Source of the DNA: a virus
Reading direction: 5' to 3' (one strand)
Length of the DNA: 25,619 nucleotides
IMG/VR virus record: IMGVR_UViG_3300022538_000287
Location: 1 to 25,619 of that record
The notes under the pieces are model-generated. The model ran no database searches. It was not told the DNA's origin and worked only from the letters and a program-made list of their open reading frames with translations. The translations under genes and the position numbers were made by a program. Position 1 is the stretch's first letter. Each line of letters starts with the position of its first letter. Positions 5,093 to 24,030 of the stretch are shown piece after piece.

Positions 5093-6184
5093 CTAATCAG
5101 TCGGATAGCTCCTTTTAGTTTTTGGGGGGCTTAACCTTTCTAATTTACCTAATACTTCGCCCAGTTTTCTTTCACCCCACGTTTGGTATCTCTGCCAGAC
5201 ATCTGGACCGCCCTTGTTTATGGCATCAATTTTGGTTATGTTATCACTCAATACAGCCCTAGCCGCTACCAGGTGACAGAACAATTCTTCGTGGTGTGGT
5301 TTAAGGGTAGAACTCACAAAGGTTACAGCATCACCAGCCACGGTATCAGCTTCAAGTGCAGGCCAGTGGTAAAGCATACTACCTGTACTGTCTTGTCCAT
5401 TAAATGTGGCCGCTTCATAAATTGTGTAAAGAGTTCTGTGATTTGCTATGTAAAATTCATCCCCTACCTCTGGCACTTCTCCTTCGGTAAAACCTTTGAC
5501 TCGAACCCTTCTGTCCCCAGCCTCTCCCTCGTCTGTCCCTGTCATTGTCACTCCGCCTAAATCAGTAAGCTGGCAAAGTCTATGAGGCTTGGCAAACCGG
5601 ACAAGGACATCTATATCACTAGGTGGGTCTTTGGTAGAATCACTATCTTGAACAGAGTCAACATCTATCTCAAGAATATCGCCATAAACCTTGAAGTTCC
5701 TTCGTGTACCAATAGGATATTCTACCGAATCAATCCACAAATGGTCAGTTACATCTTCAACCCCTATATCACCCATAAAGATTTGCTTATTATTTCTGCA
5801 CCGCTTATTGTATATCTCGTAACTCTCACCACTAGCCATTATGCTGGCAGTAAGAGTTTGAATTTCCGTGCTGCTATCGGTCATTATCACAGCCCAAGTA
5901 TTATCAGTAGTATTGTGCACAACCTTTTCAAGGGTTGCATCAGTAGAAAGGAATTGTCCTTTGGTAGTATCGGTTAGTGCAGTAGTTGTACTCCCTGTAT
6001 CAGTCCCCGTTCTACTCTCTATCTTGAATATTACATCAACAATATGAGGGTCATAGGTGGCCAGTTCCTTCAGGGATTCCTCAATCCAATAGGCTACTTC
6101 TGTGGTATCATCATAGGTTGTCCCAGTCGGGTCTTGTAGCATCTGGTTTATTTTTATCAGCATATCAGCATAGCTTGTTGCCAT
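5093..6184 (-). CDS. Head-tail adaptor-like virion protein
   Basis: A 363-residue protein. The N-terminal ~45 residues form paired helices (DMLIKINQMLQDP and EVAYWIEESLKELATYDP) of the type seen in phage head-completion or adaptor proteins (gp6/gp4-like); the middle is beta-rich with many Thr and Asp; and residues about 290-363 return to helices ending in a basic tail (KRSYPTD). Position between the portal-capsid block and the tail hub fits an adaptor or nozzle role. Its ATG directly follows the zinc-ribbon gene's stop (TAAATG), with a G-run ribosome site (GGGGGG) inside that gene. The adaptor label rests on the helical start and context, not on a firm homology. Confidence 0.6.
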   Translation of the reverse strand: MATSYADMLIKINQMLQDPTGTTYDDTTEVAYWIEESLKELATYDPHIVDVIFKIESRTGTDTGSTTTALTDTTKGQFLSTDATLEKVVHNTTDNTWAVIMTDSSTEIQTLTASIMASGESYEIYNKRCRNNKQIFMGDIGVEDVTDHLWIDSVEYPIGTRRNFKVYGDILEIDVDSVQDSDSTKDPPSDIDVLVRFAKPHRLCQLTDLGGVTMTGTDEGEAGDRRVRVKGFTEGEVPEVGDEFYIANHRTLYTIYEAATFNGQDSTGSMLYHWPALEADTVAGDAVTFVSSTLKPHHEELFCHLVAARAVLSDNITKIDAINKGGPDVWQRYQTWGERKLGEVLGKLERLSPPKTKRSYPTD

Positions 6185-6411: not shown

Positions 6412-6840
6412 ATGATTATAAAACATTGTTTAATTTGCCAAACCCCTATTAAGGTCTCCCCTTCTCAACTCGCCTCTAAAAAAACTTGTAGCAGAAAATG
6501 TGATGCCAAGTGGCGTAAGCAATCTGGTCTTTATGCTAGTGAGAACAATCCTGCCTACAAGGGTGGTAAAGTGATTTACGGCGATTATCGCTATGTAAGG
6601 GGCAATCGCCATAAGACCCCCGAACATCGTCTTATAATGGAGCAATATCTTGGTCGCCCACTTTTTTCGTATGAGCAAGTTCATCATATAAACGGTGACA
6701 AGCTTGATAACCGCCTTACGAATCTTTTTGTCTTTAATATCAAAACTCATTCTCGCAATCACTTCCAACTTTTTAAGCGTGTCCAACAATTAGAGCAAGA
6801 AAACCAATTATTAAAAGCAAGATTAGCCTCTATTTCCTAG
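6412..6840 (+). CDS. HNH homing endonuclease-like protein
   Basis: A 142-residue free-standing HNH nuclease and the only clear plus-strand gene. The N-terminus has a zinc-finger pattern (Cys6, Cys9, Cys26, Cys30); NNPAYKGG follows at 45-52; the HNH_3-type catalytic core is VHHINGDKLDNRLTNL (His91, His92, Asn94, Asn100); and residues 118-138 look like a coiled coil. Enzymes of this group nick or cut DNA and spread their own gene by repair-driven homing. It is driven by its own promoter against the direction of the structural operon. Its last 11 bases overlap the 3' end of the small basic gene tail-to-tail, and both ends of the gene border matching coding fragments, the arrangement expected of a homing insertion. 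Confidence 0.92.
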   Translation: MIIKHCLICQTPIKVSPSQLASKKTCSRKCDAKWRKQSGLYASENNPAYKGGKVIYGDYRYVRGNRHKTPEHRLIMEQYLGRPLFSYEQVHHINGDKLDNRLTNLFVFNIKTHSRNHFQLFKRVQQLEQENQLLKARLASIS

Positions 6841-7007: not shown

Positions 7008-8264
7008 CTATATTTGCCTAAACCCTCTGAAACTTGTATCCTTTTTATTGTATAAATTGTGTGATTGCTCAAGGCAAGCATCTAGCTTCCCCTTATAATA
7101 TTCTGTTACCAATACATCGTTGGCCTTCCGCAATTCCTCGTGGAAAACATCATCGGGTATCTCGGTGAAATTTACACACAGTAAGTCCGAGTTGACATGC
7201 TTATTTTCATAGAAATCCTCTACCCCACCTAGTAATCCCTGTTTGATAGCATAGTAATATAAATCACAACCAGGATACGGGGTGACAGGGCGAATTGTCC
7301 TTAACTGGGCATCATCGCTATACTTCACCACAAAATCAACAGTCTTGTGTAGTGTCTCAATGGTATCCCCGACATTTCCCCACATCACATTAAGCCCTGG
7401 GGATATACCCGATTCCAGTGTGCTTTCTACCCCCCTCGTTATCTGCTCAACTGTTAGGTTTTTATTCATATTCCTGAGAACCTTATCGTCTAAACACTCA
7501 ACGCCATAGTTGATAAATACACAGCCCGCATCTTTCATTGCCCTTAATATCTTTGGTTTAGCATAGTTTAACCTACCGCAACACCCCCATCTTATATTCA
7601 AGGGCTTTAATGCTTCCGAGAGCTTCCTTATCCTATCAGGGCTTACCATCAAAAGTTCATCGTTAAAGAGAATATAGGTTGCACGATACCTTTCCTTTAG
7701 TATCTTAATCTCATCCACAATGCTTTCGGGGCTTCGTGGTCTATACCCTGGCACCATACGATAGCAGAAGGTGCACCTGAATGGACATCCTCTCCCCGAT
7801 AATACAGTGAGACACCTGTCTGTATTATCGCTCCTAGGGAAACGGAAGAGCGAGTAGTAATCCATTGGGAATAAGTCCCAAGCAGGAAGAGCTATATCGT
7901 CTACATTTTCCTTATAATCGTACTCCCCCTCACAGATATAATCTGCAAATTGGGAGAAGTATTCTTTCTCTGGGGCGAACATCTGCCCGCCTAACCATAT
8001 CTTCACATCAGGCGGAATTACACTGATAATCTTCTTAAACTTAGCATACTGGTAATAACCAGCACACATACTCAATCCAACTGCATCAAAGTGCTTCTTG
8101 TTAAGATACTGTTTCAAGTGTTCTTCGGGATAATGGTGGACATCTTGGTTGTAAATCTCTACATTATGTCCCTCATTCCTCATGGCAGAAGCAACATAAG
8201 CCAACCCCATAGGAAACCAGTGTATATGGGAACCATTATCATAAGCTATTAGTAAAATTTTCAT
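7008..8264 (-). CDS. B12-binding-type radical SAM protein
   Basis: A 418-residue enzyme with a Rossmann-like cobalamin-binding-type N-domain (residues 1-115: MKILLIAYDNGS, GLSMCAGYY, WLGGQMF) and a radical SAM domain with the cluster motif CPFRCTFC (Cys160, Cys164, Cys167). The classic DxHxxG cobalamin ligand is not evident, as in many family members. Such proteins bind a [4Fe-4S] cluster and S-adenosylmethionine and catalyse methylations, ring rearrangements or deoxygenations, often in glycan or antibiotic pathways. It is the last gene of the sugar block, overlapping the CMP-sugar synthetase gene by four bases (ATGA). A sugar-modifying reaction is the natural guess; the substrate is unknown. 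Confidence 0.85.
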   Translation of the reverse strand: MKILLIAYDNGSHIHWFPMGLAYVASAMRNEGHNVEIYNQDVHHYPEEHLKQYLNKKHFDAVGLSMCAGYYQYAKFKKIISVIPPDVKIWLGGQMFAPEKEYFSQFADYICEGEYDYKENVDDIALPAWDLFPMDYYSLFRFPRSDNTDRCLTVLSGRGCPFRCTFCYRMVPGYRPRSPESIVDEIKILKERYRATYILFNDELLMVSPDRIRKLSEALKPLNIRWGCCGRLNYAKPKILRAMKDAGCVFINYGVECLDDKVLRNMNKNLTVEQITRGVESTLESGISPGLNVMWGNVGDTIETLHKTVDFVVKYSDDAQLRTIRPVTPYPGCDLYYYAIKQGLLGGVEDFYENKHVNSDLLCVNFTEIPDDVFHEELRKANDVLVTEYYKGKLDACLEQSHNLYNKKDTSFRGFRQI

Positions 8265-9577
8265 TTCTTATACGCATAGAAGGTCATAACATTCCCTGCA
8301 AAGGGAGGGGATACCTTGTCGGTATCAAATAACCTCATTAAGTTCTCCTCTGTAAAATATTCCGTTTCAAAGAATGGGTATGTAACTCTCTCAATATTAA
8401 ACAGGTTATCTTTTAGAAGTTGATACAAACCTAATAAAGAAAACAAACTTATATGCCCTTTATCGTTCAATAATCTAAACCTTTCCTGAAATCTTTGGGC
8501 AACTGCCGAATTGAAATCAGGCGTTGTAATTACTAGTTTCCCCTCGGGTCTGAGCATACGCCGTATATCCTTGATTGCCCCTACAGGGTCAGGGAGGTGT
8601 TCTATGACATGGTTTAGAATAATGGCTTCAAACATATCGTCAGGGAAATCCATCTCCTTGACAATAGACCCATATCGCTCCGCCTCTTCCCTAGCATAAT
8701 CCGATGGTTCAAATCCGAACTTTTCCCATTTATTATCTAGCCCTGAAAGGAAGAAACCAAACCCACACCCATAGTCCAGAACCCTGCCAGAGTATTGATT
8801 CAGATAGTCCAACTGCTCCTTACAAATAGCTACCTGCTTATCCCTCTCAAGTATCATTTCACGATAATTGCCATCAGGGTCAGCCTTTGCCCAGTATCCT
8901 TCTCTATAATCTTCATGTCCATTGCGAGAGACATAATAATCCTTTCCCATTAAGGTCTCGGCTATTAACCAGTCATCCTCATTGTCCAGATGTATGCTAT
9001 CTCGTTTAGGAATAATGACATACCCCCTTTTCCCGCCCAGTCGGTTATGAGTTTCCCTCAATACATCTGCCTTAACAACCCAGCAATTACCCGTTTCTCT
9101 TAAACGGGGTTGTATATCTTGTTTCATAGGTCGTTCCATTATCCTGTTGTCGTCTGTCAAAAAGCCAAAATCCTCAGTCACACAGCAACAACTATCGTAT
9201 CCATTGAGAACCAACTGTATGCAACTATCTATATATTCTGGGCGATTCAAGGGATTTGTTGGCTCCAAAAGAACTACCACCTGACTGAGAACGGTTTTTA
9301 GAACATCTAGCATAGTTTCTTCAGCCTTAGAGGTATCGGTGGCTAGTTCCTGTGTTCTTAGATGCACTCGTATCCTATTACCAAACAAATCATTGGCTAT
9401 TCCCAGAATCTTAGCACTATTGGATGATACCACTACAGTATCAACAAGTTTGGAATCTAGCGCATTTTTAATCTGGTAATAGAGTAGGGGCTTACCTCCG
9501 ACATCTCGGATATTCTTATGCTTGATTCCCTTACTCCCATACCTGGCGGGAATAATAGCTAAAACTTTACTTATCAA
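8261..9577 (-). CDS. CMP-sialate synthetase-like cytidylyltransferase fused to a SAM methyltransferase
   Basis: A 438-residue two-domain protein. Residues 1-210 match acylneuraminate cytidylyltransferases (NeuA type): IPARYGSKGIKHKNI at 9-23 for CTP binding, VVVLLEPTNPLNRPEYID at 100-117, and LDNEDDWLIAE at 197-207 with metal-binding acidic residues. These activate sialic-type sugars as CMP-sugars. Residues about 255-438 are a class I methyltransferase with SAM motif VLDYGCGFG (266-274), acidic FEPSD (289-293) and HVIEHL (323-328). The start must be a TTG (9575-9577), with GGTGGG upstream; the ORF overlaps the SPASM gene's end by 11 bases. The fusion suggests methylation of the sugar before, during or after CMP activation. 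Domain calls are firm; the sugar is not known. Confidence 0.88.
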   Translation of the reverse strand: MISKVLAIIPARYGSKGIKHKNIRDVGGKPLLYYQIKNALDSKLVDTVVVSSNSAKILGIANDLFGNRIRVHLRTQELATDTSKAEETMLDVLKTVLSQVVVLLEPTNPLNRPEYIDSCIQLVLNGYDSCCCVTEDFGFLTDDNRIMERPMKQDIQPRLRETGNCWVVKADVLRETHNRLGGKRGYVIIPKRDSIHLDNEDDWLIAETLMGKDYYVSRNGHEDYREGYWAKADPDGNYREMILERDKQVAICKEQLDYLNQYSGRVLDYGCGFGFFLSGLDNKWEKFGFEPSDYAREEAERYGSIVKEMDFPDDMFEAIILNHVIEHLPDPVGAIKDIRRMLRPEGKLVITTPDFNSAVAQRFQERFRLLNDKGHISLFSLLGLYQLLKDNLFNIERVTYPFFETEYFTEENLMRLFDTDKVSPPFAGNVMTFYAYKK

Positions 9578-10670
9578 TAAAACCCACCTTCGCCCCTCGT
9601 TTTCTCAAAATGTAAAACCCATCCTCTTCTCGAATGTTAATCATAGTGTCTAACTTGGGCGGCTTGGGATTTCCTCTACGCAAGTTATCACACCCCTTAA
9701 TAGAATCTGTATAATATAAGGCTACCATTCTACATCCAGCCTGACAGGTTTCAAGTCTAGGGCAATTCTGGCATTCTTCTGGTATATATTCCCCAGAACG
9801 CCACACCCTCATATTCCCCCAAACGCCCTTAATACCTATTTCGTGTATATTGCCATAGGTTTCACCCTCATGGGGACAAGCCCTAGCATTACCCTGAACA
9901 TCTGTTAATATTTGGGTCATAGCGTGACATCCTCTATGAGTAAATTCCAAATCATCACCATCTGGGTCATCAAAGAAACACTCAGGTGTCGTCCTACAAG
10001 ATTGAACCTCTATGCCCAATGCCCTGACTCGTTTCAAATCACTAAACATCTTTTGGGTCTGCTCCTTACCTGCTAAGAACTCCTGCTGCAAGCTCCCCTT
10101 ATTGTTTTGGCTGGGGATACATCTGTTGGCCATAAATTTCTTTACCCCCATCTTGTAGAGCAGTTTACCCGCTTCAAACACATCACCCTTATTATGCTCC
10201 GAGACAATGGCGTTTACCGACACTCTAATCCCTGCTTCTTGGGTAACTTTAATACCCCTTATTACCTTGTGCCATGTTTTAGCACTTGCCATAAAGTTAT
10301 GAACTTCAGGTTTATGTGAGAATAGTGTAGTCAAGCAATGGTCTACACCCGCATCTTTAAGTTTCCCCATTTTGTCGGGGGTGGCTGAAACCAGGTTGGA
10401 GTTCAGGCTAATGGTCATACCTGCATTGGTACACTTCTTCGCAAGATAAATTGTCTTTTCCACGGCAAGTAATGGCTCGCCACCAGTGATAATGACATGC
10501 ATTACCTTGTTTTTAATTAACTCACTTATCGTGTTATCTAAGTTTTCCCACGATATGCTCTGGGGCTTAAACGATTCCCCCCTACAGAAGTTATAGCAAT
10601 GACGGCATCGCTCGTCACAGGCTTCTGTAATTTCAATGTGAGCTGTTATAGGTGCTGATAAATTCCTCAA
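9567..10670 (-). CDS. Radical SAM protein with SPASM domain
   Basis: A 367-residue radical SAM enzyme: CDERCRHC (Cys18, Cys22, Cys25) binds the SAM cluster, GGEP is at 63-66, and the C-terminus has the complete SPASM spacing: Cys248, Cys265, then Cys300-x2-Cys303-x5-Cys309-x3-Cys313 and Cys327, which hold two auxiliary [4Fe-4S] clusters. SPASM enzymes usually modify peptides or proteins (sactipeptide, PQQ, sulfatase maturation), and some act on sugars. The start is a TTG: an in-frame TGA lies two codons upstream, no ATG or GTG precedes the Cys motif, and GGGG lies about 7 nt before the TTG. It overlaps the HAD gene by 38 bases and the synthetase gene by 11. Confidence 0.88.
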   Translation of the reverse strand: MRNLSAPITAHIEITEACDERCRHCYNFCRGESFKPQSISWENLDNTISELIKNKVMHVIITGGEPLLAVEKTIYLAKKCTNAGMTISLNSNLVSATPDKMGKLKDAGVDHCLTTLFSHKPEVHNFMASAKTWHKVIRGIKVTQEAGIRVSVNAIVSEHNKGDVFEAGKLLYKMGVKKFMANRCIPSQNNKGSLQQEFLAGKEQTQKMFSDLKRVRALGIEVQSCRTTPECFFDDPDGDDLEFTHRGCHAMTQILTDVQGNARACPHEGETYGNIHEIGIKGVWGNMRVWRSGEYIPEECQNCPRLETCQAGCRMVALYYTDSIKGCDNLRRGNPKPPKLDTMINIREEDGFYILRKRGAKVGFIDK

Positions 10671-10953
10671 TTGTCATCCCCTTATCATCTATAAAAAAGT
10701 CCGCCTCTGGCTTACCAAAGATTAGTTCGTGATACTTTACCCCCCAATTCATAAGTTGTTTCTCAGTAAAACTCTTCCAATCTATTCCTGTTACAGTTCC
10801 CCTAGCAGAAAAAAGTGTAATCTGATTCCCCTGCTCGTATAGCTCATTTATCCTTGCTATTCTCTCCTTGTAAGGCGCTGCCTTGTTATAAGGAATCGTA
10901 TTATCTGGTTCCTGGGTACAAATAGTGCCATCAATATCAAAGCAATACCTCAC
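10633..10953 (-). CDS. Small HAD-family phosphatase
   Basis: A 106-residue HAD hydrolase with all four motifs: DIDGT (nucleophile Asp6, acid Asp8), FSARG (Ser49), Lys81 in FGKPEADFF, and the metal-binding DD at 89-90. It lacks a cap domain. Compact HAD proteins of this kind occur in capsule and nucleotide-sugar loci. Next to a NeuB-like synthase it could dephosphorylate a 9-phosphate nonulosonic acid, as in the known NANS/NANP and Kdn pathways; that substrate is inferred. The start is a GTG overlapping the NeuB stop (GTGA), with AGGGAG 6 nt upstream. The 38-base overlap with the SPASM gene means both are read through the same stretch in different frames. Confidence 0.82.
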   Translation of the reverse strand: MRYCFDIDGTICTQEPDNTIPYNKAAPYKERIARINELYEQGNQITLFSARGTVTGIDWKSFTEKQLMNWGVKYHELIFGKPEADFFIDDKGMTIEEFISTYNSSH

Positions 10954-11711
10954 ATCATACTCCCTATATTTCGTGCATCTCTAACCATTATGTGTAAGCC
11001 CCTTTCTTCCAGTGAAGATGATTGGTCACTCCCGTAACTGGAGCGGTCTAGCGTAATGTGTTTCTCTACGGCAACCGCACCAAGGGCTACAGCTATTGAT
11101 GTATCTATAACGCCTGGGAAATGCGCACTATAGCCTACTGGCACACCATACTCTTTAAGTTCCCGAATCTGGCTCAGGTTACACTTATTAAGAGGGCAGG
11201 GATAATCCATAACACAGTGCATTAAGGTCATCGGACAACCTTTCTGTGCGAAAATATCCACCGCATTATATATGGCATCCTCATCATTTAACCCCGTTGA
11301 TATGAAGGTATGTTTCCCCTCCTCAGCGATAGTTCTTAAAAGTTCCTCATTAGTAATCATCTTGGATGCCACCTTGTTATAGTTCAGGTTATATTTCCCC
11401 AAGAATAACTGACTCCCTACATCCCAAGATGAGGCATACCAATAAATCCCATTTTGCTTACAATAATCATCAATCTCATCATATTCAGAGTCAAACTCTA
11501 GTCCCAGTTTTTGTTCTCGCTGAGTAGTCCCCCACGGACTCTGTCGAGTACCATTAAGGAACTCCTCAGTATAGACCTTATCTACTGTGCGTTTCTGAAA
11601 TTTAACCGCATCACAATCACACCTGATTGCCATATTGATTAACTTCTTGGCAATCTCAATGTCGCCATTATGGTTTATCCCAATTTCAGCAGTAATAAAT
11701 ACCTTATCCAT
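10950..11711 (-). CDS. NeuB-like nonulosonic acid synthase, barrel domain only
   Basis: A 253-residue TIM-barrel enzyme of the N-acetylneuraminate synthase family, which condenses phosphoenolpyruvate with a six-carbon amino sugar or its phosphate to give a nine-carbon sugar acid. Visible family motifs: AEIGINHNGD (8-17), AVKFQKR (35-41), KVASKMITN (113-121), FISTGL (136-141), GYSAHF (193-198) and AVAVEKHITLD (212-222). Cellular NeuB proteins are near 340 residues and end in a SAF (antifreeze-like) domain that closes the partner subunit's active site; here the protein stops right after the barrel. The gene overlaps the cupin gene by 8 bases and the HAD gene by 4. Family call firm; exact sugar unknown. 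Confidence 0.88.
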   Translation of the reverse strand: MDKVFITAEIGINHNGDIEIAKKLINMAIRCDCDAVKFQKRTVDKVYTEEFLNGTRQSPWGTTQREQKLGLEFDSEYDEIDDYCKQNGIYWYASSWDVGSQLFLGKYNLNYNKVASKMITNEELLRTIAEEGKHTFISTGLNDEDAIYNAVDIFAQKGCPMTLMHCVMDYPCPLNKCNLSQIRELKEYGVPVGYSAHFPGVIDTSIAVALGAVAVEKHITLDRSSYGSDQSSSLEERGLHIMVRDARNIGSMM

Positions 11712-12021
11712 ATGACTCCGTTAAACGATAAACATCCCCCTCATCGTGATGGGTAGAAACCTCAAGAATTACAGCTTGGTTAATTCCCAAAAAGCTGTGC
11801 GGGGTGTTTGGCTCTATAGTGATAGGTTCCTTCAAGTCAAATTCTTGCCCATCTACTGTAAAGATTACATTGCCCATTAGACAGTAAAAGGTTTCCTTCT
11901 TATTCTTATGGTAATGCACCGAACTCTGCCCACCTAGATTTATATAGAGCAACTTACCGCAGTATTCCTTGCAGTTTGCTATCCATTCCTCTCTACCCCA
12001 CTTCTTAACTCGAGTTTCCAC
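11704..12021 (-). CDS. Cupin protein (sugar isomerase/epimerase-like)
   Basis: A 105-residue single-domain cupin. Motif 1 is complete (GGQSSVHYHKNKKETFYCLMG), giving metal ligands His36, His38 and Glu43; motif 2 (PNTPHSFLG) supplies His75. The WGREEWI opening resembles the cupin half of mannose-6-phosphate isomerase/guanylyltransferase proteins and of small cupins found beside NeuB genes. It may interconvert the six-carbon precursor for NeuB or bind an activated sugar. I prefer the GTG start at 12019-12021; a TTG at 12037-12039 would add six residues but has no spaced ribosome site. It overlaps the upstream 80-residue gene by 17 bases, so it is translated with phage structural-region genes. 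Confidence 0.8.
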   Translation of the reverse strand: METRVKKWGREEWIANCKEYCGKLLYINLGGQSSVHYHKNKKETFYCLMGNVIFTVDGQEFDLKEPITIEPNTPHSFLGINQAVILEVSTHHDEGDVYRLTESYG

Positions 12022-12247
12022 TCTCGTTGAGTTCCTCAATACCTATATCGTTTTCATCCACTCGGAACTCTTGCCCCCACAACTCTGCCTCATGCCCAAG
12101 ATGAGTAAGTTGCGATTGTAAAAGTTGTCTACCCTGACCTCCAACTACAGACTCAAGGCCCACAATTAAATCATCAAGTGTTTTTCCCTCCTTGCTTATG
12201 AGGGATACCTCATTACCGCCACCACCAAATCTACTTAATTTATCCAT
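12005..12247 (-). CDS. Hypothetical protein, 80 residues
   Basis: Unrecognised. The protein has a glycine patch (FGGGGNE) near the start, a helical middle (LDDLIVGLESVVGG, QLLQSQLTHLGHEAE) and an acidic, Ser/Asn-rich end. No Cys, signal peptide or membrane segment. The ATG shares one base with the stop of the 107-residue gene (TAATG) with GGATGAG upstream, and the end runs into the cupin gene in another frame. Its coupling to both a virion-type gene and a sugar gene shows that the sugar block is not transcribed as an isolated cassette. Confidence 0.65.
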   Translation of the reverse strand: MDKLSRFGGGGNEVSLISKEGKTLDDLIVGLESVVGGQGRQLLQSQLTHLGHEAELWGQEFRVDENDIGIEELNESGNSS

Positions 12248-12561
12248 TAGTATCTCATCCCCTTAACTCTTATTAATCTTTCTGCCATCTGTGGTTCAGT
12301 GGAGCATACCTTAATGTATCGAAAACCACCCAGTATCCACGCAGCACCTCGGTCAAAGGTTTCTAAATCAGTTGTAGTCTCCCTACCTAAATCTTGGTAA
12401 GGGCCAGCCAGCACCTCTGCTACCTGTAAGTACATTTTACATTTATCCATTCGTGGTATCCGTACGCTTAGGTTATCATACTCTATACCAAGGTCTATGG
12501 CAGATGACTCACTAGCACCAACTGCTATAGTAGCAGTCACCCATTGTCCGTATCTACTCAT
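12247..12561 (-). CDS. Small virion-associated protein, about 104 residues
   Basis: Begins MSRYGQWVTATIAVGASESSAIDLG. Short beta-rich proteins with this opening (a strand, then 'ASxSxAIDLG') recur in phage head-tail regions and are probably decoration or tail-surface subunits; I know no named function. A GTG nine bases further upstream is open, but it would sit only about 2 nt from the ribosome site, so I choose the ATG at 12559-12561. GGAGGG lies about 10 nt upstream, separated from it by an alternating TG run. One base overlaps the next start. Confidence 0.72.
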   Translation of the reverse strand: MSRYGQWVTATIAVGASESSAIDLGIEYDNLSVRIPRMDKCKMYLQVAEVLAGPYQDLGRETTTDLETFDRGAAWILGGFRYIKVCSTEPQMAERLIRVKGMRY

Positions 12562-12577
12562 TACACACACACCCTCC

Positions 12578-12710: not shown

Positions 12711-13397
12711 TCATATAAGATTATCTTTATGGTGTGGGTCTATTGGAGGTAGATAGTTGGGTTCCCCTTCCTTGTAATACCATTTAGCCACCTCTTTCCC
12801 ATCGTTGTATGTCTTGACCGTGATGGCACTTGGGTCTACTCCATTTACAAAGCAGTACGGGTCACGGTCAGACCGTCCAATTGTAACGAAGTCCTTTCTC
12901 TCCCCTAATAGAAGATATTTCTTCCTGATATGTTCCCCCATTGCTCGGAACAATATAGAGGTCTTGGTGACTTCCCACTCAACGCCCCTACCACTTGCCA
13001 CACCCAACCAGAAGGTAACATAGGGTTTATTGGTTAGGTACATCCATTCAGGGCCTTGGTCTATACCATAGAGCCTTATCTTCTCATAACCCAAATAGAG
13101 AGCATAAGCAAGCATATAGGAGACAGTATTTTTGAAATAGACAGTTTTGAACTCTTTGACAATCTCATTGTAAGGGAAATCCTCAGTTGCATAATCCCTC
13201 AACGAAACAATGGGTATGCCTTTGCTTTTGGCAATATCTAGCCCCTCTCGTAAAATCCCTTCATACTTGTCAAAAGCGAAGACTTTGGAGCATTCCCCCT
13301 TTATGTCTGGAAGTGCCCTAGAAGTTGTCCACACCTCGGCATCAAAAGGGCATGAAGCAGCAGAAGGCCCCATGCCCAGAATAATTACTTCTTTCAT
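12711..13397 (-). CDS. Rossmann-like protein resembling GT-42 sialyltransferase / DUF115 folds
   Basis: A 228-residue protein. The opening MKEVIILGMGPSAA (GMGPS at 8-12) and the later NTVSYMLAYALYLGYEKIR followed by LYGID (90-113) match, in order and spacing, the nucleotide-binding start and the 'SGVYM ... ALGYKEIYLSGID' helix-strand of GT-42 sialyltransferases (CstII type) and the related DUF115/Maf and MptE proteins. The catalytic His of CstII and its Arg beside the TSG motif are not obvious here, and I recall similar proteins in phages without sialic genes, so a transferase role is only a lead. The ATG has a weak AAGG site before a TG run. It is the first gene of the accessory block, after a GC-rich hairpin. 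Confidence 0.55.
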   Translation of the reverse strand: MKEVIILGMGPSAASCPFDAEVWTTSRALPDIKGECSKVFAFDKYEGILREGLDIAKSKGIPIVSLRDYATEDFPYNEIVKEFKTVYFKNTVSYMLAYALYLGYEKIRLYGIDQGPEWMYLTNKPYVTFWLGVASGRGVEWEVTKTSILFRAMGEHIRKKYLLLGERKDFVTIGRSDRDPYCFVNGVDPSAITVKTYNDGKEVAKWYYKEGEPNYLPPIDPHHKDNLI

Positions 13398-16456: not shown

Positions 16457-17335
16457 TTAGTATTTCCTGGTATAGAACGGTCTACCAAAGGTTGCCCTTA
16501 ATACGTCTGAACCAAACAGTGCGCTGACATTTACAACATCTGCGTGCGCTGCGTGGTGTCGCCACTTCTCAACTGTCGGCCCATCCTGAATTACCAGACC
16601 GATTGCGTCTTTGTGTAGCAGACAACCATACGAACCAATGCCGTAAGTCAGTAGGTTATTAGTAACATAAACTGGCACACCATATATCTGTCCGATATTA
16701 CCAGTTGTAACCACTGATACCTTTTGATAGTCCAACCTCACAAACTTATCTATCTTGTAGATGTCGGCTATGCTTGAGGGGTCAAATACCAATGACCTGT
16801 CTGCCCTTGGCACATCGTTTTCATCAAGGTACTCCATAAGGGCAATCATAATGTCATCTGTAAAGGTCTGTCCATCAGAACCATATACTGTGGTACCACT
16901 GTAGCCACCCAGATAAGAAAAGAGTGTATTAACATCAGTATCAATTTTCTTCGCTAGTCCGAAGGCAGCATTAGAAGCAGCCGTTTCCAACAGATTCCCA
17001 ACCTGTGTCTGCGCTTTCACGCTGTCATCAATTATGACAGGGATTTCCCACCATGTATCAATCGTGATGGTAGCCTCATCGCCTGTGTAGTCAGTAACTG
17101 TAGTAGTGGCGTTTGTCACAGTGTTTATGGTTACATCAACATCCCCACCTGTTATTACTATCATAGTTGGAATGTATAACTTATCACCCATGGCAAGTTC
17201 AGTCTTCCAACTGGTATTGACTACATTGACGCTGACAAGGTTCTCCCTGACATGGTCTATTACTTTAGATGACCAAACTTCTGGTATAAACTGGTCGTCT
17301 GTCGCTGCACTTGGTCGTCTATTTGCCAATGCCAT
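16457..17335 (-). CDS. Major capsid protein
   Basis: A 292-residue coat protein of the HK97 fold, in the P22-coat/phage capsid group. Support: a short N-arm (ANRRPSAATDDQFIPEVWS), a spine-helix-like segment near 118-140 (NLLETAASNAAFGLAKKIDTD), the A-domain pattern PRADRSLVFDPSSIADIYKID (about 170-190), the GQIYGVPVYVTNNL strand pair, and a late DVLRATFGRPFYTRKY end. Length matches short-tailed phage coat proteins. AGGAGG precedes the ATG. Directly downstream of the scaffold gene (16-nt gap), the usual pairing for proteins that assemble the procapsid together. It must be the most highly expressed gene here. Confidence 0.9.
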   Translation of the reverse strand: MALANRRPSAATDDQFIPEVWSSKVIDHVRENLVSVNVVNTSWKTELAMGDKLYIPTMIVITGGDVDVTINTVTNATTTVTDYTGDEATITIDTWWEIPVIIDDSVKAQTQVGNLLETAASNAAFGLAKKIDTDVNTLFSYLGGYSGTTVYGSDGQTFTDDIMIALMEYLDENDVPRADRSLVFDPSSIADIYKIDKFVRLDYQKVSVVTTGNIGQIYGVPVYVTNNLLTYGIGSYGCLLHKDAIGLVIQDGPTVEKWRHHAAHADVVNVSALFGSDVLRATFGRPFYTRKY

Positions 17336-18136: not shown

Positions 18137-18298
18137 TTATAGCTTTATGCTTTTTACAGCCTCTTCAATCCTTATGGGTTGCCCTGCTTCCAAGTATAGT
18201 ACAACCCTCCCATATCCAATTTCGTGGAGTAACTTTAGTAGTTTTTGCTCGTTCTTACTTATTATAACAGGTGTTTCTTTAGTTGTCAAGTCATTCAC
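18137..18298 (-). CDS. YezD-like (DUF2292) small protein
   Basis: A 53-residue protein: a short variable start, then NEQKLLKLLHEIGYGRVVL (16-34) and GQPIRIEEAVKSIKL (39-53). This is the signature of the YezD/DUF2292 family ('LLxLIREIGYGEVxIxVQDGxPVRVExxKKSIKL'), a small compact domain present in bacteria and phages whose function is not established. The GTG start overlaps the stop of the giant gene (GTGA), with AAAGGG upstream. The gene body contains a perfect sigma-70 promoter, so its reading frame and a promoter for downstream genes share the same bases. Confidence 0.82.
   Translation of the reverse strand: MNDLTTKETPVIISKNEQKLLKLLHEIGYGRVVLYLEAGQPIRIEEAVKSIKL
18261..18289 (-). promoter_or_regulatory. 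Perfect sigma-70 promoter inside the YezD-like gene
   Basis: On the minus strand TTGACA (18284-18289) and TATAAT (18261-18266) match the consensus at 6 of 6 positions each, with a 17-bp spacer ending in TGT (extended -10). Transcription should begin near 18254 and run towards scaffold and capsid; it meets the intrinsic terminator about 165-195 nt later. It is the best promoter match I found on the minus strand. Confidence 0.75.
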
Positions 18299-21200
18299 CT
18301 CAACCCTTTCAATAACTCTTCTAACTCACGCATAGCTTCATCAAATTCTGCCTCTGCCTTAGTAACATCCTCTAGGAACTCCTCAGTTGGCGTTAATTCA
18401 GCCCTCCGCTTCTGCTCTGCGGCTGGAACTAAACCAAATTTCAAGACCATCCAAGCATCAAGACTGGGGTTTTCGTAACGATAATCCAATCGCCTTTTAC
18501 CCGTTGGTAATTTGACATACTCTAGATACTTAGCAAATATATCTCTTGTAGGAACCTTACTGAAGTCCCTTGGTTTATTGCCTTGAAAGCCAAGATAAAC
18601 CTCCTCGTAAATATCTGGGTGCTCTATGAGATACCAGTCATCCTCATACCAAAGGTCAGTCTTATTTACATCTTCCCAATCATCTGGCTTTACTTTCTTT
18701 TCCTTGAGGTATCCAAGGTACTTGGCATAAACCTCTCTGGTGGGGACTTTGCTAAAATCTTTTTCTTGAATAATCTCCTTGTCAACCATAGCTTGGTAGA
18801 ATTCAGGGTTCTCCATTAAGAACCAATCATCCTCATAATCCTTGCGTTCTGTCATATACCAATCAATGTAGTTGTCTATCTGCCCTTCAGGGAAATCTAT
18901 TTGAAGGGCGTTCTTTTTGTAATTGAGTTTCCTGTATTCCTCGGAGGCTTCAGCCAATCTATCTAGTTCAACATTGATACGCAGTACATCTTCATTCCAA
19001 TCACTACCGTCATCGGTTAGTAGCTTATTGTCCAATGCCCACTTGTGAGCCTCTGGATTATCCAATAACCAAACCTTAGCCTGAGAACTACCAGCACCGA
19101 ACTCGTCTATGGTTTTACCCCTGTCAACCCATTTCTCCATAATCTCATCTGATGCGTCATTATCAATAGCTTCTATACGCCTCATATCAGCAACCCAATT
19201 AGGATTGTCTTCCTTGAATTTTGCCCTTGCCTCCTTGCGTAACTCCGCATCCTCTATGTAATTGGGTGCTTCTGTGTTTCCAAAGTTCTCATATTCTGTA
19301 GTCTGGTCAAACCATTTCTGCTCCAGTTCAAACTTCTGGGTGAATAACTCATCATACCTACTAGGGTCGTCCAGAAAAGCCCTGATTGCTTCTGGGGGTA
19401 TGTCGTATTTCTTCATTAAGCCCAGTAGTATCTCAGCACTCTTGGGGTTCTTAAAGGAGGATACTTTGCCAAACAGATAAAGCAGGGCTTCCACATCAGG
19501 GAATTGCTGTCGCCACAATAATCTAGCATCATCTTCTTCTAGGTTGTAATACGGTTCCCACAAATCCTGTGCGTGTAGTGCCTCAATAGCAAGGGCGTGT
19601 CCGTCTCGTTCTACCTTAGACCTGCCCTGTATTCTTACATAATTATTTACTTCGGTAAGGAAGTTGCTGATGGTAAAGTATTCCGCAGGCTCGGCAACAA
19701 CCAGTTTCTCAAGTTCACCGAGCCTATTTTGAAACTTCTGGAGTTCAGGCTTTGTGTCAATGCCAAATACCTTCTCATAGCCATCAATCAACTCAGTATC
19801 TATCTTGTGTTCTTCAATAAGCCTTAGAACTTCTGCTCTAGCCTCATCAGATGACAATACCGTAAATTGACCCACAATAAACATTTTAGCTTCAATTTTG
19901 GGATTATCTATTCTCCATTGATTTCTGATTTTAGCATCAGACCAACCAATTTGCTGTGGATGTGCTTTAAGATATTCAAATTTAAGGTCTGGGTCATATA
20001 TACCCTCATCATCTTTGAAAAGTGGATAGGCTTCAAATTCCTTCTCCCACTTATTCCTTAACCGCTTTATCTCTATATCCTTGCCTTCAAGATAAAGAAG
20101 TAATGTTAGCCAATCCCTTTCCCCGGTCGCCACATAATTCATCTGCTTGATTATGCTGGGAATAAAAGTTGACTTCAGGCTGTTCCAGCCAGTTTTAAGT
20201 CGCCTATCATCATCAGTAACAAAGCCCACAACAAGGTCAGCAACAGCACCAGGGGCTTGTAGGGCAGGGAAATCGCCACCAACTATATCAGCTAAATAAC
20301 TTAATGAGGTTAGCCCCGTATATTCCCAAGCCTTTAGTCTAGTTTTCTCTTTAAGTGCATATCCCAGTCCAACAATGAGCATATACATTAAGATGGCTTT
20401 GCTGGTCTGTGACCAATTCTTTACAGGCATTGCTTGACCTGTCTCTTTTGTATAAGCCAGAAACACTTGTGAAGGTCTTACTTTAATCCACTTAGTCATT
20501 AACTCCATCCAATTTTCAGTCCAAGTGGTTAGCATTGAGAATACCCTGCCAATAGAGTTTTGAGACATAGAAAAACTATTAAATTTTGTGTAGAGATACT
20601 GCGTATCAGCAGCTACCTCATCACCCCTATTTATCCACAATTCCCTGGGAGCATTGGGGAATAACTCTTTAGCCTCAGCATAACCAGCAAGAAAGGCATC
20701 GGATACATTCTGCTTATCAGCAAAGCGGAACATCCACAAAGCTTTTTCACGAAAACTATCAGTCCACTTACTGGCAAAGGAAGAATCAATCGCAGGTATA
20801 AACGCTCCCCTACGAGAACGCAATACCAAACTTTCTTTTAGGGCAGCCCTGCCTTCTGGGGTAACTCGCAGGCCTAGTCCCTTAGCAAAGTTTATCGGCC
20901 CTGCTTCTGCAATAATTAAACTATGCTGTCCCAGATTTCTGATAGCAGATGTAGGCTTAAAGCCAAGCCACAAAGTGTATAGAACACTGGTAAGATTATA
21001 AGATATCATTCCGCCTGGATTGCCCCTTGTCAGCGAATTGGCAAATGCTTCTCCGCCTGGTAGCCCCCTAACCCTATCGGCAAACTCATTGACTGTTCGG
21101 TTTAATTCTCTATCTATGGTAAGGGGTCTGTCTGTGATTCTTGTAATGAAGTTGCTCAAATACCTCGCTGAATGCGGAGGTAAGTATTTCTGATAAACCC

Positions 21201-24030
21201 TAATTCTTTGGATAAGTGGCTCATAGTAGAACACCTTTAATGCCCTAGCTTCATAAGCCTTGGCAGCAGCAAATGGGTCTTCCCTTAATCCAATCGTCTG
21301 TCCCAACCGCCTTTGGAGATATGGATTAAACACTGTTTTGGGAGTTATAAAATCAAGTGCCTTGATAAGTTCGGGGTCTATTGGATGCTTACCTTTGAGT
21401 TGCTGGCTTATCTCTTCCTCAAAGATATGGGTTACATAATTCGTTCTGCGTTTATTCTCTGGTAAATTGAGCCTATCAGCCCAGCTGTCAAAGTATTTCC
21501 TGAACCAAGTAACTGCCCGTTTCTCATCAAAGGTTAATCCAACTTGAGAACCTGGATTTTCTAATTCCCTAAACACTAACCTACGCCTTGCGGGGTCTTT
21601 GCCAACCAGCTTTCCAATTCTATTTAATTCCTTATCAAAAGCCTGATGCTCTTCATAAACTAAAACCTCAGCCTCAAATGCTGGCTTCCAAACTTCCTGC
21701 CTTAATCCCATCTTCTCAAAGACGTGGCGAGTAGGTCTAACCTTCTCTAATATCCCAATCTCTTTAAGGAGTGGTATCTTATCAGCAAACTCTGCGGTGA
21801 TTAAACCTACGCCAGTCGGTATCACTGGGGGTCTACCATATTTGACTTCTAATCTACCAACAGCCTCTATTACTAAATCAGCTTCACCCTGAGTTAGTTG
21901 GTTAATTCTATTCTTGCCAGTCAGGGCTTTCATTAACCTGCGGAGTTGGGGTTTAGTCTTACCCTCCTCAGTCATAATCAGTTTTTCTTTAGCAAGGGTA
22001 TTTATGCTTTCTGTTTGCTCACTGGTAATAGCCCTTTCAGCTATAACTTCAGGTTCTACTGGAGGTTTAGCAACTTCAACTGCTGGGGGTTCTACAATAG
22101 CCCTTACCGCATCCTCTAATCCTTCCATACCAGCCAAGGCTTCTCCCCTCGCCTCTGGTGTAACTGCTTCTTGTGCCTGTTTTAGATACTCCTTGAATTG
22201 AACTAGGGAAGTATTGGTGGGTTCTATCTTCTCGGCAACCACAACTAATTCTGCCCCCTCTTTCATCAAGGCAGCCATCAATGGTGGTGCTTCAGGCACT
22301 TCTGGTATTACAACTGCTTCGGGTTCAGCTATATGTTCCCAAGCCAATGCCTCAGTCTTATCCACAGGCTTAACGGATTCAATGCTTTCCTCTTTTATAA
22401 CCTCTTCAACAACCCTATCAGTAATATCCTGAACTTCCCTGTTATCACCTATCGCATCAAGTGCTTCAATTTTAGCCTGTATATCAGAAGCACCATCAGC
22501 TTTTAATCTATCTACCGTGGCATCAAACTCTGGCTTGACATCAGTAGGTAATTGCCCTGAAACCCTATTAGTGATTGTAGTGAGGACATCAGCGGCACCT
22601 CCCATACCAAAACCCATAATCGCACCAACCATAAATGCCATCTTCATTTCATTGTCCCACTCCACCTCAAGTCCCAGTGCCTGTCTTTCAATAACATTCT
22701 GTATTGCCTCTTCACCACCTTCAGTTAAGGACACGGTAACTATTTTGCCACCAACCCTAACAACCGTAGCTAACCCCCTACCAACTAGATTATTAAGTGT
22801 TCCCGTAGGGTCAGGGAGAAAGGCGGCAAAGAGCTGTATTGCGTTCGTGCCAGTAAGAGCACCAACTCCTTTTGTAAAAGTGCTTTGGGCAGCTTCATCG
22901 GCATCTTCATCAGACCATCCCATAAGTTTCGCTTCATTCCAAACACTGCCAGCCTCAAAAGATGATTCCAATATTGCTCCACTAGCACCAGCAAATATAG
23001 ATGCTATAAGATGAGCCTTCCAAGTTCCTACTCCTACTGCTGCCAATGTTGCTGAGCCAGTGCCAAAGGTCATTAAACTAATCGGTATCATCGCTACTGA
23101 AAAGGGTAATGCCCTTGCTACTACCGTTGACCAAAAGCGTGGGTCTAACAGGGTTTTTAGTGATACATCCCATTCCTCTACTGGAGGAGCAACCCTATGA
23201 AAAGACCTTGCTATCTCTAGTAGATTTCCCCTTAGTGTTTCATTACCAAGCCAACCAGCTACACCTGCTGCCCCAGAAACCAAATCACCATAGCCAGCCG
23301 ATATAGACCTCATCGGCAAAGTATCTAAAAATCCCCAGAGGTAAGGTTCGCTTACCTCCTCCCATTTTGCCCGCCACCCCTCAGCATCTAAGTCAAGTTT
23401 AGATAACTCAATAATCTTTTTAATTTCATCTTCGGGGACACCACCTATTTGGAGTATTTCACGCTTACGCTTATCCGACATTCCATAGATGGTTTCTAAA
23501 TCTCGCCGAGTAAAGCCTATATATTGTAATAGCCTATCACTGGCGATGGTTCTAGGCATTGCCTTTATATCCCCCAGAAAACTCTCCCAATCAGTTTCAA
23601 CATATTCAATGAATTCTTCGGTAGTCAAGTCGGGGAATACACTTTGCACCATTGCTTCCCGTTCTTCAACCTCAACAAAATATTCCTCGGGTACACCCAG
23701 AGTTCGCAATACAAAATCACGCTCTTCGGGGGTTGCTCTAACATCAAGGTCGTAAAGAAATGCCTCTGGGTCTTCTTGTGCCAAAGAACTTAATTCAACC
23801 ATTTTGGTTGGCAGGTCTTCAGGTTTCAAGGTCGGAAAACTAGGATAAAGCCGAGCAATAAGTGGATATAACTCAGCAGGTTCAAGGGTTGCAGGTTCTA
23901 CCGGAGGTAACTCCTCTACTGGCTCAATAGGGGGGAGTTCCTCTTCGGGAACCGCCAATGGCTCAATCGGAGGCTTCTTACGCCTTCTCTCAATCTCTAG
24001 TATTTCCTTATGTGTTATACCAGTAGTCAT
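18295..24030 (-). CDS. Giant internal virion / ejection-type protein, 1911 residues
   Basis: A single 5.7-kb ORF. Residues 18-52 are a Pro/Glu-rich linker (PPIEP, PPVEP repeats). Residues 300-360 and 463-483 are hydrophobic, Gly/Ala-rich and could insert in membrane; between them EGGEEAIQNVIERQ resembles a motif I have seen in phage internal proteins. A second Pro/Glu region lies near 600-680. The centre (about 750-1400) is helical with further apolar segments (YNLTSVLYTLWLGF, ILMYMLIVGLGYAL). The C-terminal ~500 residues repeat an 'xNPxxxxxM/A' helical unit, ending in two close copies. No catalytic motif recognised. Size and position after the portal match ejection proteins that form a DNA-delivery channel. 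AGGAG precedes the ATG. Confidence 0.7.
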   Translation of the reverse strand: MTTGITHKEILEIERRRKKPPIEPLAVPEEELPPIEPVEELPPVEPATLEPAELYPLIARLYPSFPTLKPEDLPTKMVELSSLAQEDPEAFLYDLDVRATPEERDFVLRTLGVPEEYFVEVEEREAMVQSVFPDLTTEEFIEYVETDWESFLGDIKAMPRTIASDRLLQYIGFTRRDLETIYGMSDKRKREILQIGGVPEDEIKKIIELSKLDLDAEGWRAKWEEVSEPYLWGFLDTLPMRSISAGYGDLVSGAAGVAGWLGNETLRGNLLEIARSFHRVAPPVEEWDVSLKTLLDPRFWSTVVARALPFSVAMIPISLMTFGTGSATLAAVGVGTWKAHLIASIFAGASGAILESSFEAGSVWNEAKLMGWSDEDADEAAQSTFTKGVGALTGTNAIQLFAAFLPDPTGTLNNLVGRGLATVVRVGGKIVTVSLTEGGEEAIQNVIERQALGLEVEWDNEMKMAFMVGAIMGFGMGGAADVLTTITNRVSGQLPTDVKPEFDATVDRLKADGASDIQAKIEALDAIGDNREVQDITDRVVEEVIKEESIESVKPVDKTEALAWEHIAEPEAVVIPEVPEAPPLMAALMKEGAELVVVAEKIEPTNTSLVQFKEYLKQAQEAVTPEARGEALAGMEGLEDAVRAIVEPPAVEVAKPPVEPEVIAERAITSEQTESINTLAKEKLIMTEEGKTKPQLRRLMKALTGKNRINQLTQGEADLVIEAVGRLEVKYGRPPVIPTGVGLITAEFADKIPLLKEIGILEKVRPTRHVFEKMGLRQEVWKPAFEAEVLVYEEHQAFDKELNRIGKLVGKDPARRRLVFRELENPGSQVGLTFDEKRAVTWFRKYFDSWADRLNLPENKRRTNYVTHIFEEEISQQLKGKHPIDPELIKALDFITPKTVFNPYLQRRLGQTIGLREDPFAAAKAYEARALKVFYYEPLIQRIRVYQKYLPPHSARYLSNFITRITDRPLTIDRELNRTVNEFADRVRGLPGGEAFANSLTRGNPGGMISYNLTSVLYTLWLGFKPTSAIRNLGQHSLIIAEAGPINFAKGLGLRVTPEGRAALKESLVLRSRRGAFIPAIDSSFASKWTDSFREKALWMFRFADKQNVSDAFLAGYAEAKELFPNAPRELWINRGDEVAADTQYLYTKFNSFSMSQNSIGRVFSMLTTWTENWMELMTKWIKVRPSQVFLAYTKETGQAMPVKNWSQTSKAILMYMLIVGLGYALKEKTRLKAWEYTGLTSLSYLADIVGGDFPALQAPGAVADLVVGFVTDDDRRLKTGWNSLKSTFIPSIIKQMNYVATGERDWLTLLLYLEGKDIEIKRLRNKWEKEFEAYPLFKDDEGIYDPDLKFEYLKAHPQQIGWSDAKIRNQWRIDNPKIEAKMFIVGQFTVLSSDEARAEVLRLIEEHKIDTELIDGYEKVFGIDTKPELQKFQNRLGELEKLVVAEPAEYFTISNFLTEVNNYVRIQGRSKVERDGHALAIEALHAQDLWEPYYNLEEDDARLLWRQQFPDVEALLYLFGKVSSFKNPKSAEILLGLMKKYDIPPEAIRAFLDDPSRYDELFTQKFELEQKWFDQTTEYENFGNTEAPNYIEDAELRKEARAKFKEDNPNWVADMRRIEAIDNDASDEIMEKWVDRGKTIDEFGAGSSQAKVWLLDNPEAHKWALDNKLLTDDGSDWNEDVLRINVELDRLAEASEEYRKLNYKKNALQIDFPEGQIDNYIDWYMTERKDYEDDWFLMENPEFYQAMVDKEIIQEKDFSKVPTREVYAKYLGYLKEKKVKPDDWEDVNKTDLWYEDDWYLIEHPDIYEEVYLGFQGNKPRDFSKVPTRDIFAKYLEYVKLPTGKRRLDYRYENPSLDAWMVLKFGLVPAAEQKRRAELTPTEEFLEDVTKAEAEFDEAMRELEELLKGLR
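18511..18834 (-). repeat. Tandem C-terminal repeats in the giant protein
   Basis: Two ~45-residue units, residues 1733-1776 (18703-18834) and 1796-1840 (18511-18645), share EDDWxLxExPxxY, DFSKVPTRxxxAKYLxYxK. More distant copies of the ENP/DNP-containing part occur earlier (DNPEAHKWALDNKLL, DNPNWVADMRRIEA) and later (ENPSLDAWMVLKFGL). The codons of the two best copies differ, so this is an old duplication kept at the protein level. Confidence 0.65.

Follow-up and report, generated by a model that had tools for sequence, protein, structure and literature searches.

IMG/VR viral contig IMGVR_UViG_3300022538_000287, 25,619 bases in length and here called the window, carries a cassette of six minus-strand open reading frames (ORFs) at positions 7008 to 12039. 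The products are consistent with a pathway for a cytidine monophosphate (CMP)-activated sugar acid of the nonulosonate (NulO) type. In order, the genes encode a cupin, a NeuB-type synthase, a HAD phosphatase, a SPASM-type radical S-adenosylmethionine (SAM) enzyme, a CMP transferase fused to a methyltransferase, and a cobalamin (B12)-binding radical SAM enzyme, with successive overlaps of 8, 4, 38, 11, and 4 bases (Table 1). An initial annotation of this DNA had described six genes of these families with overlaps of 4 to 38 bases. The overlaps proved real, the coordinates differing only by the choice of cupin start, and the families were borne out by domain matches far above chance with intact catalytic motifs. 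The cupin starts with TTG at position 12039, with an alternative GTG start at 12021, and overlaps the 80-residue ORF upstream by 35 bases (17 from the GTG start). The annotation had called this overlapped neighbor a virion-region gene; the overlap was found, while the ORF, having no family match, belongs to the virion genes by position only.

TABLE 1 Coordinates of the cassette genes and of neighboring features in the window
Feature	Position	Strand	Basis
Cupin, first cassette gene, 111 aa	11704..12039	-	Cupin_2 PF07883
NeuB-type phosphoenolpyruvate (PEP)-condensing synthase, 253 aa	10950..11711	-	PF03102, tree, conserved residues
Small HAD phosphatase, EcbF/BcbF-like, 106 aa	10633..10953	-	HAD motifs, PHROG 1238
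SPASM-type radical SAM enzyme, 367 aa	9567..10670	-	PF04055, Cys pattern
CMP-sugar-acid synthetase fused to class I SAM methyltransferase	8261..9577	-	PF02348, PF13489
Cobalamin-binding radical SAM enzyme, 418 aa	7008..8264	-	PF02310 + PF04055
Predicted CMP-NulO transferase, GT42/Maf-like fold, 228 aa	12711..13397	-	Predicted model, sequence profile
80-aa ORF upstream of cupin	12005..12247	-	No family match
107-aa ORF, virion region	12247..12570	-	No family match
Major head protein (context, upstream)	16457..17335	-	PHROG 267, 1.2e-34
Possible tail protein (context, downstream)	5093..6184	-	Weak PHROG 1302 distal tail protein match, 6e-6 over 72 residues

The synthase matched PF03102 with 195 bits (Pfam cutoff, 22.1), and its closest solved structure was 6ncs. 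The N-acetylneuraminate synthase equivalog TIGR03569 scored 203.6 bits, below the required 399.65. The protein is a TIM barrel only, without the C-terminal SAF domain, and the NeuB-domain match stops at residue 252 of 253. Equivalents of Neisseria meningitidis NeuB E25, K53, Q55, K129, S132, S154, Y186, S213, H215, H236, and D247, among them the catalytic and metal-binding residues of that enzyme, were all conserved (including E9, K37, Q39, K113, Y170, S195, H197, H218, and D229 of the window protein). The position of N184 is occupied by Met168 and is variable across the aligned set. Homologous loci, referred to by L numbers, were fetched through searches with NeuB, the B12 radical SAM enzyme, or the 12711-13397 protein, and the counts of NeuB, HAD, and NeuC genes given here describe this sample, not all phages. 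Short SAF-less NeuB was found in 32/32 phage NeuB loci, the long forms being bacterial; the sole apparent phage with a long NeuB (L014) is a Moritella contig. In a quick, preliminary tree, phage and bacterial SAF-less proteins grouped together (SH-aLRT, 98), separate from canonical NeuB and LegI (96). The window protein sat with those of phages L130 and L002 and bacterium L074, and a divergent fragment, L127, fell outside the SAF-less clade. By tree and conserved residues, neither a placement outside the sugar-acid clades nor the loss of an active site was observed. In canonical NeuB, the SAF domain of the neighboring subunit reads the N-acetyl group; because this reader is missing, an unacetylated substrate is plausible for the SAF-less form.

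Several other NeuB genes were seen in passing. In L002, the closest phage relative (10001 to 10711), the gene appears damaged in midprotein, with the motifs around the second Lys and the HC..YP region lost, perhaps through a frame error or decay. Unannotated homologues were present in LR756508.1 (322772 to 323518; a 484-kb phage genome) and in the marine virus MH319754.1 (87479 to 88225).

In the fusion protein, the CMP-sugar-acid synthetase spans residues 1 to ~215 (CTP_transf_3, PF02348, 80.6 bits; cutoff, 22.6) and the methyltransferase residues ~255 to 395 (Methyltransf_23, PF13489, 83 bits; cutoff, 27). The ARxGSKGxxxKN motif and the DxxxDW tail of the cytidylyltransferase are present. 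The closest solved structure, 1qwj, is a CMP-N-acetylneuraminic acid (CMP-Neu5Ac) synthetase, and the RQD and DxxxDW regions align with it. PseF was the best NCBIfam match, with 90.7 bits against an unreached equivalog cutoff of 205.7. Family scores and the 1qwj alignment thus placed this enzyme, too, in a sugar-acid family with its key motifs kept. An equivalent fusion occurs in Omnitrophota L074 and L169, and a viral scan with the fusion protein as the query found only L129. With NeuB and the cytidylyltransferase both in sugar-acid families and their active sites retained, the proposal that these genes form a nonulosonate-type CMP-sugar-acid pathway was upheld, and there is good support, as a prediction from sequence, for a phage-borne pathway of this type that includes two radical SAM enzymes.

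The HAD protein scored under the Pfam cutoffs, with a weak match to TIGR01689 (1e-5) and stronger ones to PHROG 1238 (2e-28) and to PDB entry 9iqw, a "capsule biosynthesis protein" (5e-14). All four HAD motifs (DxDGT, SARG, K, and DD) are intact. Synthase, phosphatase, and CMP transferase thus lie together in one overlapping run of ORFs, as the 9-phosphate route to 2-keto-3-deoxynonulosonic acid (Kdn) requires. Mannose-6-phosphate (Man-6-P) is the substrate of characterized Kdn-9-phosphate synthases (PMC6200933). A small HAD gene was near NeuB in 13/32 phage loci versus 0/47 canonical loci, and in 7/25 phage loci after near-copies were collapsed (Fisher p=3e-4). The reverse was seen for NeuC, the source of free N-acetylmannosamine (ManNAc)-type sugars, which lay near NeuB in 42/47 canonical loci versus 0/32 phage loci; no NeuC-type UDP-sugar hydrolase/epimerase was recognized among the window genes. 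Two bacteria with SAF-less NeuB carry phosphatases of the Kdn-9-phosphatase/KdsC type: in L074, a nearby phosphatase had the Kdn-9-phosphatase as its best NCBIfam match, below the cutoff, and in L026, the CMP transferase is fused to a phosphatase that passed the KdsC subfamily cutoff. The phage NeuB, being without SAF, never with NeuC, and often with a small HAD, is therefore indicated to work in a phosphorylated, Kdn-like route, which these sequence associations support without proving. The annotation's step from the HAD protein to a 9-phosphate intermediate accordingly gained indirect support, from the HAD genes beside phage but never canonical NeuB and from the L074 and L026 phosphatases. 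Separately, in L107 (6655 to 8548), a viral NeuB, a small HAD, and an MptE-like/Maf protein above the Pfam cutoff lie in a row, with a second NeuB 10 kb away.

For the cupin, the Cupin_2 match (PF07883, 35.3 bits; cutoff, 27.2) was accompanied by weaker matches to the Lyx_isomer and GMP_PMI cupin domains and by PHROG 7851 (1e-21), which is labeled cysteine dioxygenase. Cupins are also close to CMP/NeuB genes in phages L017 and L107. From its sequence, the protein appears to be sugar isomerase/epimerase-like; mannose-6-phosphate isomerase would be a guess from the weak matches, and the PHROG family label differs.

The last cassette gene encodes a protein with a B12-binding domain (PF02310, 46.6 bits; cutoff, 32.1) and a radical SAM domain (PF04055, 80.5 bits; cutoff, 29.5). 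Its CxxxCxxC cysteines are invariant, and no NCBIfam cutoff was reached. Relatives were found in 29 viral and 80 cellular loci, the cellular ones full-length at ~50% identity and found in some archaea and in many bacteria, most of these from anaerobic groups. NeuB lay within 10 kb in 37/41 cellular loci with full flanks (10 kb on both sides). All 41 of these genomes carry NeuB, and at ~2 genes per 3.1 Mb the chance expectation is therefore ~1.5%. NeuB was likewise present in 17/22 viral loci. In flagellar loci L025, L031, and L045, the gene stands beside legionaminic-type genes and Maf; named organisms with the gene in such loci include Desulfoscipio geothermicus, Geomonas silvestris, and Frackibacter. 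The family is thus a NulO-cluster enzyme in cells, and the linkage in 37/41 loci suggests that anaerobes make modified sialic-acid-like sugars, perhaps overlooked by glycan analysis. Viral copies were interspersed among cellular ones, which indicates repeated transfers. One copy, in L022 (7557 to 10771), is apparently split by an intein-like insertion inside CxxxCxxC, with other ORFs between and a SAM synthetase-like ORF following at 10873.

The SPASM-type enzyme (PF04055, 79.5 bits; cutoff, 29.5) has CxxxCxxC plus seven more Cys, including CX2CX5CX3C, and these ten are invariant in comparison with three Omnitrophota homologues; the Pfam scan listed no match of the protein to its SPASM model. 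These homologues came from 3/285 Omnitrophota genomes. All three lie inside clusters of NeuB, cytidylyltransferase, and B12 radical SAM genes, and two of the three adjoin a cytidylyltransferase-methyltransferase fusion. A viral scan with the SPASM-type enzyme gave no match. No pairing of radical SAM enzymes with nonulosonic or legionaminic acid was found in the literature covered, which left out most subscription journals; PMC6292376, which had seemed relevant, merely cites Neubauer and a KDNase. Co-occurrence of the genes, proposed earlier as a check, was evident for parts of the set, which recur in unrelated phages and many anaerobes. A second recurring set was also noticed, composed of SAF-less NeuB, cytidylyltransferase, a class III aminotransferase, a VOC protein, a SPASM radical SAM enzyme of ~260 residues, and the B12 enzyme. 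It was seen in L059, L087, L090, and L097 and in phages L002, L019, L107, L111, and L117, with not every member everywhere, and may oxidize and transaminate the sugar.

Three genes upstream of the cupin, beyond the span of the initial annotation, lies the candidate for the transferase. Its product had no family match in Pfam, NCBIfam, or PHROG scans, including Maf PF01973. Its sequence profile searched against PDB gave nine matches, all of them GT42 sialyltransferases (best, 8e-4). An AlphaFold2 model built with 22 relatives reached a pLDDT of 77, most of residues 1 to 150 being above 85; an earlier fold from 4 sequences was too poor (pLDDT, 50) for its matches to be considered. The model matched CstII by Foldseek (6e-6) and, with VIA-align, Maf 5mu5 (Z, 11.6), MptE (11.3), and CstI/CstII (~10) over 142 to 151 residues. 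Maf, whose central domain is similar to Cst-II, accepts Neu5Ac and 3-deoxy-D-manno-octulosonic acid (KDO) (PMC11339370). A GT42/Maf sialyltransferase fold is thus predicted. Profile-profile comparison gave the family only 3.5% probability against Maf central domains and 0.6% against the "GNDPQ" proteins of the L007 type, and the three are therefore not claimed as one sequence family. The Asn of the WxxN motif, present in most relatives, is Ser26 in the window. Relatives occur together with NeuB in phages L130, L132, L129, and L127. In L130, the transferase-like protein is 51% identical, NeuB 61%, and the HAD protein 47%; in L129, a capsid gene is followed by the transferase-like gene, a cytidylyltransferase, two methyltransferases, and NeuB.

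Taken together, it is considered rather probable that the phage encodes the enzymes to make a nonulosonate-type sugar, modify it by radical chemistry, and activate it with CMP, and that it probably brings its own transferase. In the proposed pathway, the SAF-less NeuB would join PEP to a manno-type aldose phosphate, at best guess Man-6-P, which the host or the cupin would supply, and the small HAD would then strip the phosphate. The sugar would be modified by the SPASM-type enzyme, the B12 enzyme, and the fused methyltransferase. Of the individual reactions, C-methylation by the B12 enzyme is the likeliest, since most characterized enzymes of its class are methylases. The cytidylyltransferase would make the CMP sugar, and the GT42/Maf-like protein would transfer it, most likely onto a virion protein from the same operon. 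That synthesis coincides with particle assembly, as the annotation proposed, is suggested by the operon position only. Substrates, step order, chemistry, and acceptor are deduced from families, motifs, linkage, and fold prediction. Should this hold, phages would contribute a complete sialic-acid-like pathway and not single genes, with the transferase in the virion operon, and self-sialylation versus host sialylation by phages becomes a testable question. A more specific version can be put forward only tentatively: that the phage itself builds and activates a C-methylated or otherwise radical-modified Kdn-like acid and transfers it to its own virion, the B12 enzyme belonging to an undescribed nonulosonate-modifying class across anaerobic bacteria, archaea, and phages.

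Several points weigh against the proposed pathway, which is predicted from sequence and models. NeuB scored below both the NeuB_NnaB and the PseI cutoffs of NCBIfam, and the HAD protein lies outside the KdsC/Kdn-9-phosphatase family, with EcbF/BcbF and HAD-IIIA matches instead. Direct homologues of the SPASM-type enzyme number three, from Omnitrophota, the sole phylum searched. The family of the transferase candidate also occurs in many phages with no detected NeuB (in mostly fragmentary records), and the C-terminal third of the protein lies outside the model, with the region of the CstII catalytic His unaligned as the profile alignment ends earlier. Because of the occurrence without NeuB and the unaligned His region, its role as a CMP-NulO transferase stays a prediction.

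The same pathway may instead serve the host surface (lipopolysaccharide, capsule, or flagellin), masking the infected cell or lysogen or changing receptors. Cellular relatives of the B12 enzyme do occur in flagellin-glycosylation and surface polysaccharide clusters, and several NeuB phages carry long polysaccharide gene sets. However, the window contained no recognizable flippase, polymerase, or further glycosyltransferase, and the only transferase candidate is among virion genes, its L129 and L130 counterparts adjoining capsid-region genes; a host acceptor is thus possible but doubtful. The cytidylyltransferase scores best as a PseF/CMAS type and not as KdsB, which argues against an eight- or ten-carbon ulosonic acid, made for example from heptose-7-phosphate, as the product of the synthase. 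GmhA-type sedoheptulose-7-phosphate isomerases lie beside SAF-less NeuB in L026, L059, L097, and phage L111, and loss of SAF removes the N-acetyl-reading part of known NeuB, but GmhA is also near 6/47 canonical NeuB loci and none was recognized in the window, leaving another chain length unlikely.

The initial annotation had left open whether the two radical SAM enzymes point to unusual sugar or peptide chemistry. SPASM enzymes commonly modify peptides, and the NCBIfam list for radical SAM enzymes includes maturases of ribosomally synthesized and posttranslationally modified peptides. Both families, however, accompany NeuB/CMP genes in cells and phages, and because of this tie, sugar chemistry is favored and membership of both enzymes in the sugar pathway is supported. 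Action on a ribosomal peptide or virion protein, apart from the sugar genes, is very improbable; no precursor-peptide candidate turned up, although no systematic search was made.

Phage L002 is related to the window, its head protein and a 1911-aa protein being 32% identical each. Downstream of its head gene, it carries the B12 radical SAM enzyme (61%), NeuB (52%), and a cytidylyltransferase, with an aminotransferase, a VOC protein, and another radical SAM enzyme instead of the SPASM-type enzyme, HAD, and cupin. The enzymes are more similar than the structural proteins, as would be expected if sugar cassettes were exchanged at a fixed position; stronger constraint on the enzymes would give it too. 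Homologous clusters exist in bacteria, but with head and probable tail genes flanking the cassette on the same strand, GC content and skew continuous through it, and the B12 enzyme and NeuB downstream of the major capsid protein gene in L002, misassembly of cellular DNA into the viral contig is of negligible likelihood.

Among known systems, the Kdn (NANS-NANP-CMAS) route of Bacteroides thetaiotaomicron (BT1713-1715) and Prymnesium parvum (PMC6200933) shares with the window a PEP-condensing synthase, a HAD phosphatase, and a CMP-sugar-acid synthetase. The window differs in having a HAD of the EcbF/BcbF group, a NeuB without SAF, two additional radical SAM enzymes and a methyltransferase, and a phage location. 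Legionaminic/pseudaminic flagellin loci with Maf share NeuB, the CMP transferase, and a Maf/GT42-fold transferase (predicted in the window), and their versions in anaerobes hold the B12 radical SAM family. In contrast, the window has no recognized NeuC or LegB/C/H, its NeuB is SAF-less, and its transferase is a stand-alone, single-domain protein. The Omnitrophota L074 and L169 NulO clusters unite SAF-less NeuB, the CMP-methyltransferase fusion, and the SPASM and B12 radical SAM enzymes, but they are chromosomal and have two NeuBs and extra CMP transferases. Neither a small HAD nor a cupin was seen within these stretches; the HAD of L074 is Kdn-9-phosphatase-like. Single sialic-acid genes are known from viruses and viromes: neuB has been counted in viromes, with a warning of cellular contamination (PMC3877843), and PHROG 4603 is a phage sialyltransferase. 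In the window, by contrast, a virion operon combines genes for synthesis, activation, and predicted transfer with those for radical SAM enzymes.

Elsewhere in the window, no tRNA genes or Rfam families were found. Downstream of the possible tail gene, the ORF at 2031 to 2633 had a weak PHROG tail/baseplate match. At 26 to 514 on the minus strand, a 162-aa protein has a type IV prepilin N-terminal methylation motif (PF07963, 4e-10; PHROG pilin, 3e-9), unusual company for phage virion genes. The 1911-aa protein, encoded at 18295 to 24030 on the minus strand, had a weak match to a virion RNA polymerase PHROG (2e-5). Between the cassette and the tail gene, an HNH endonuclease lies on the plus strand at 6412 to 6840; in phage L130, an ORF that starts like it is located between the transferase-like genes and NeuB.

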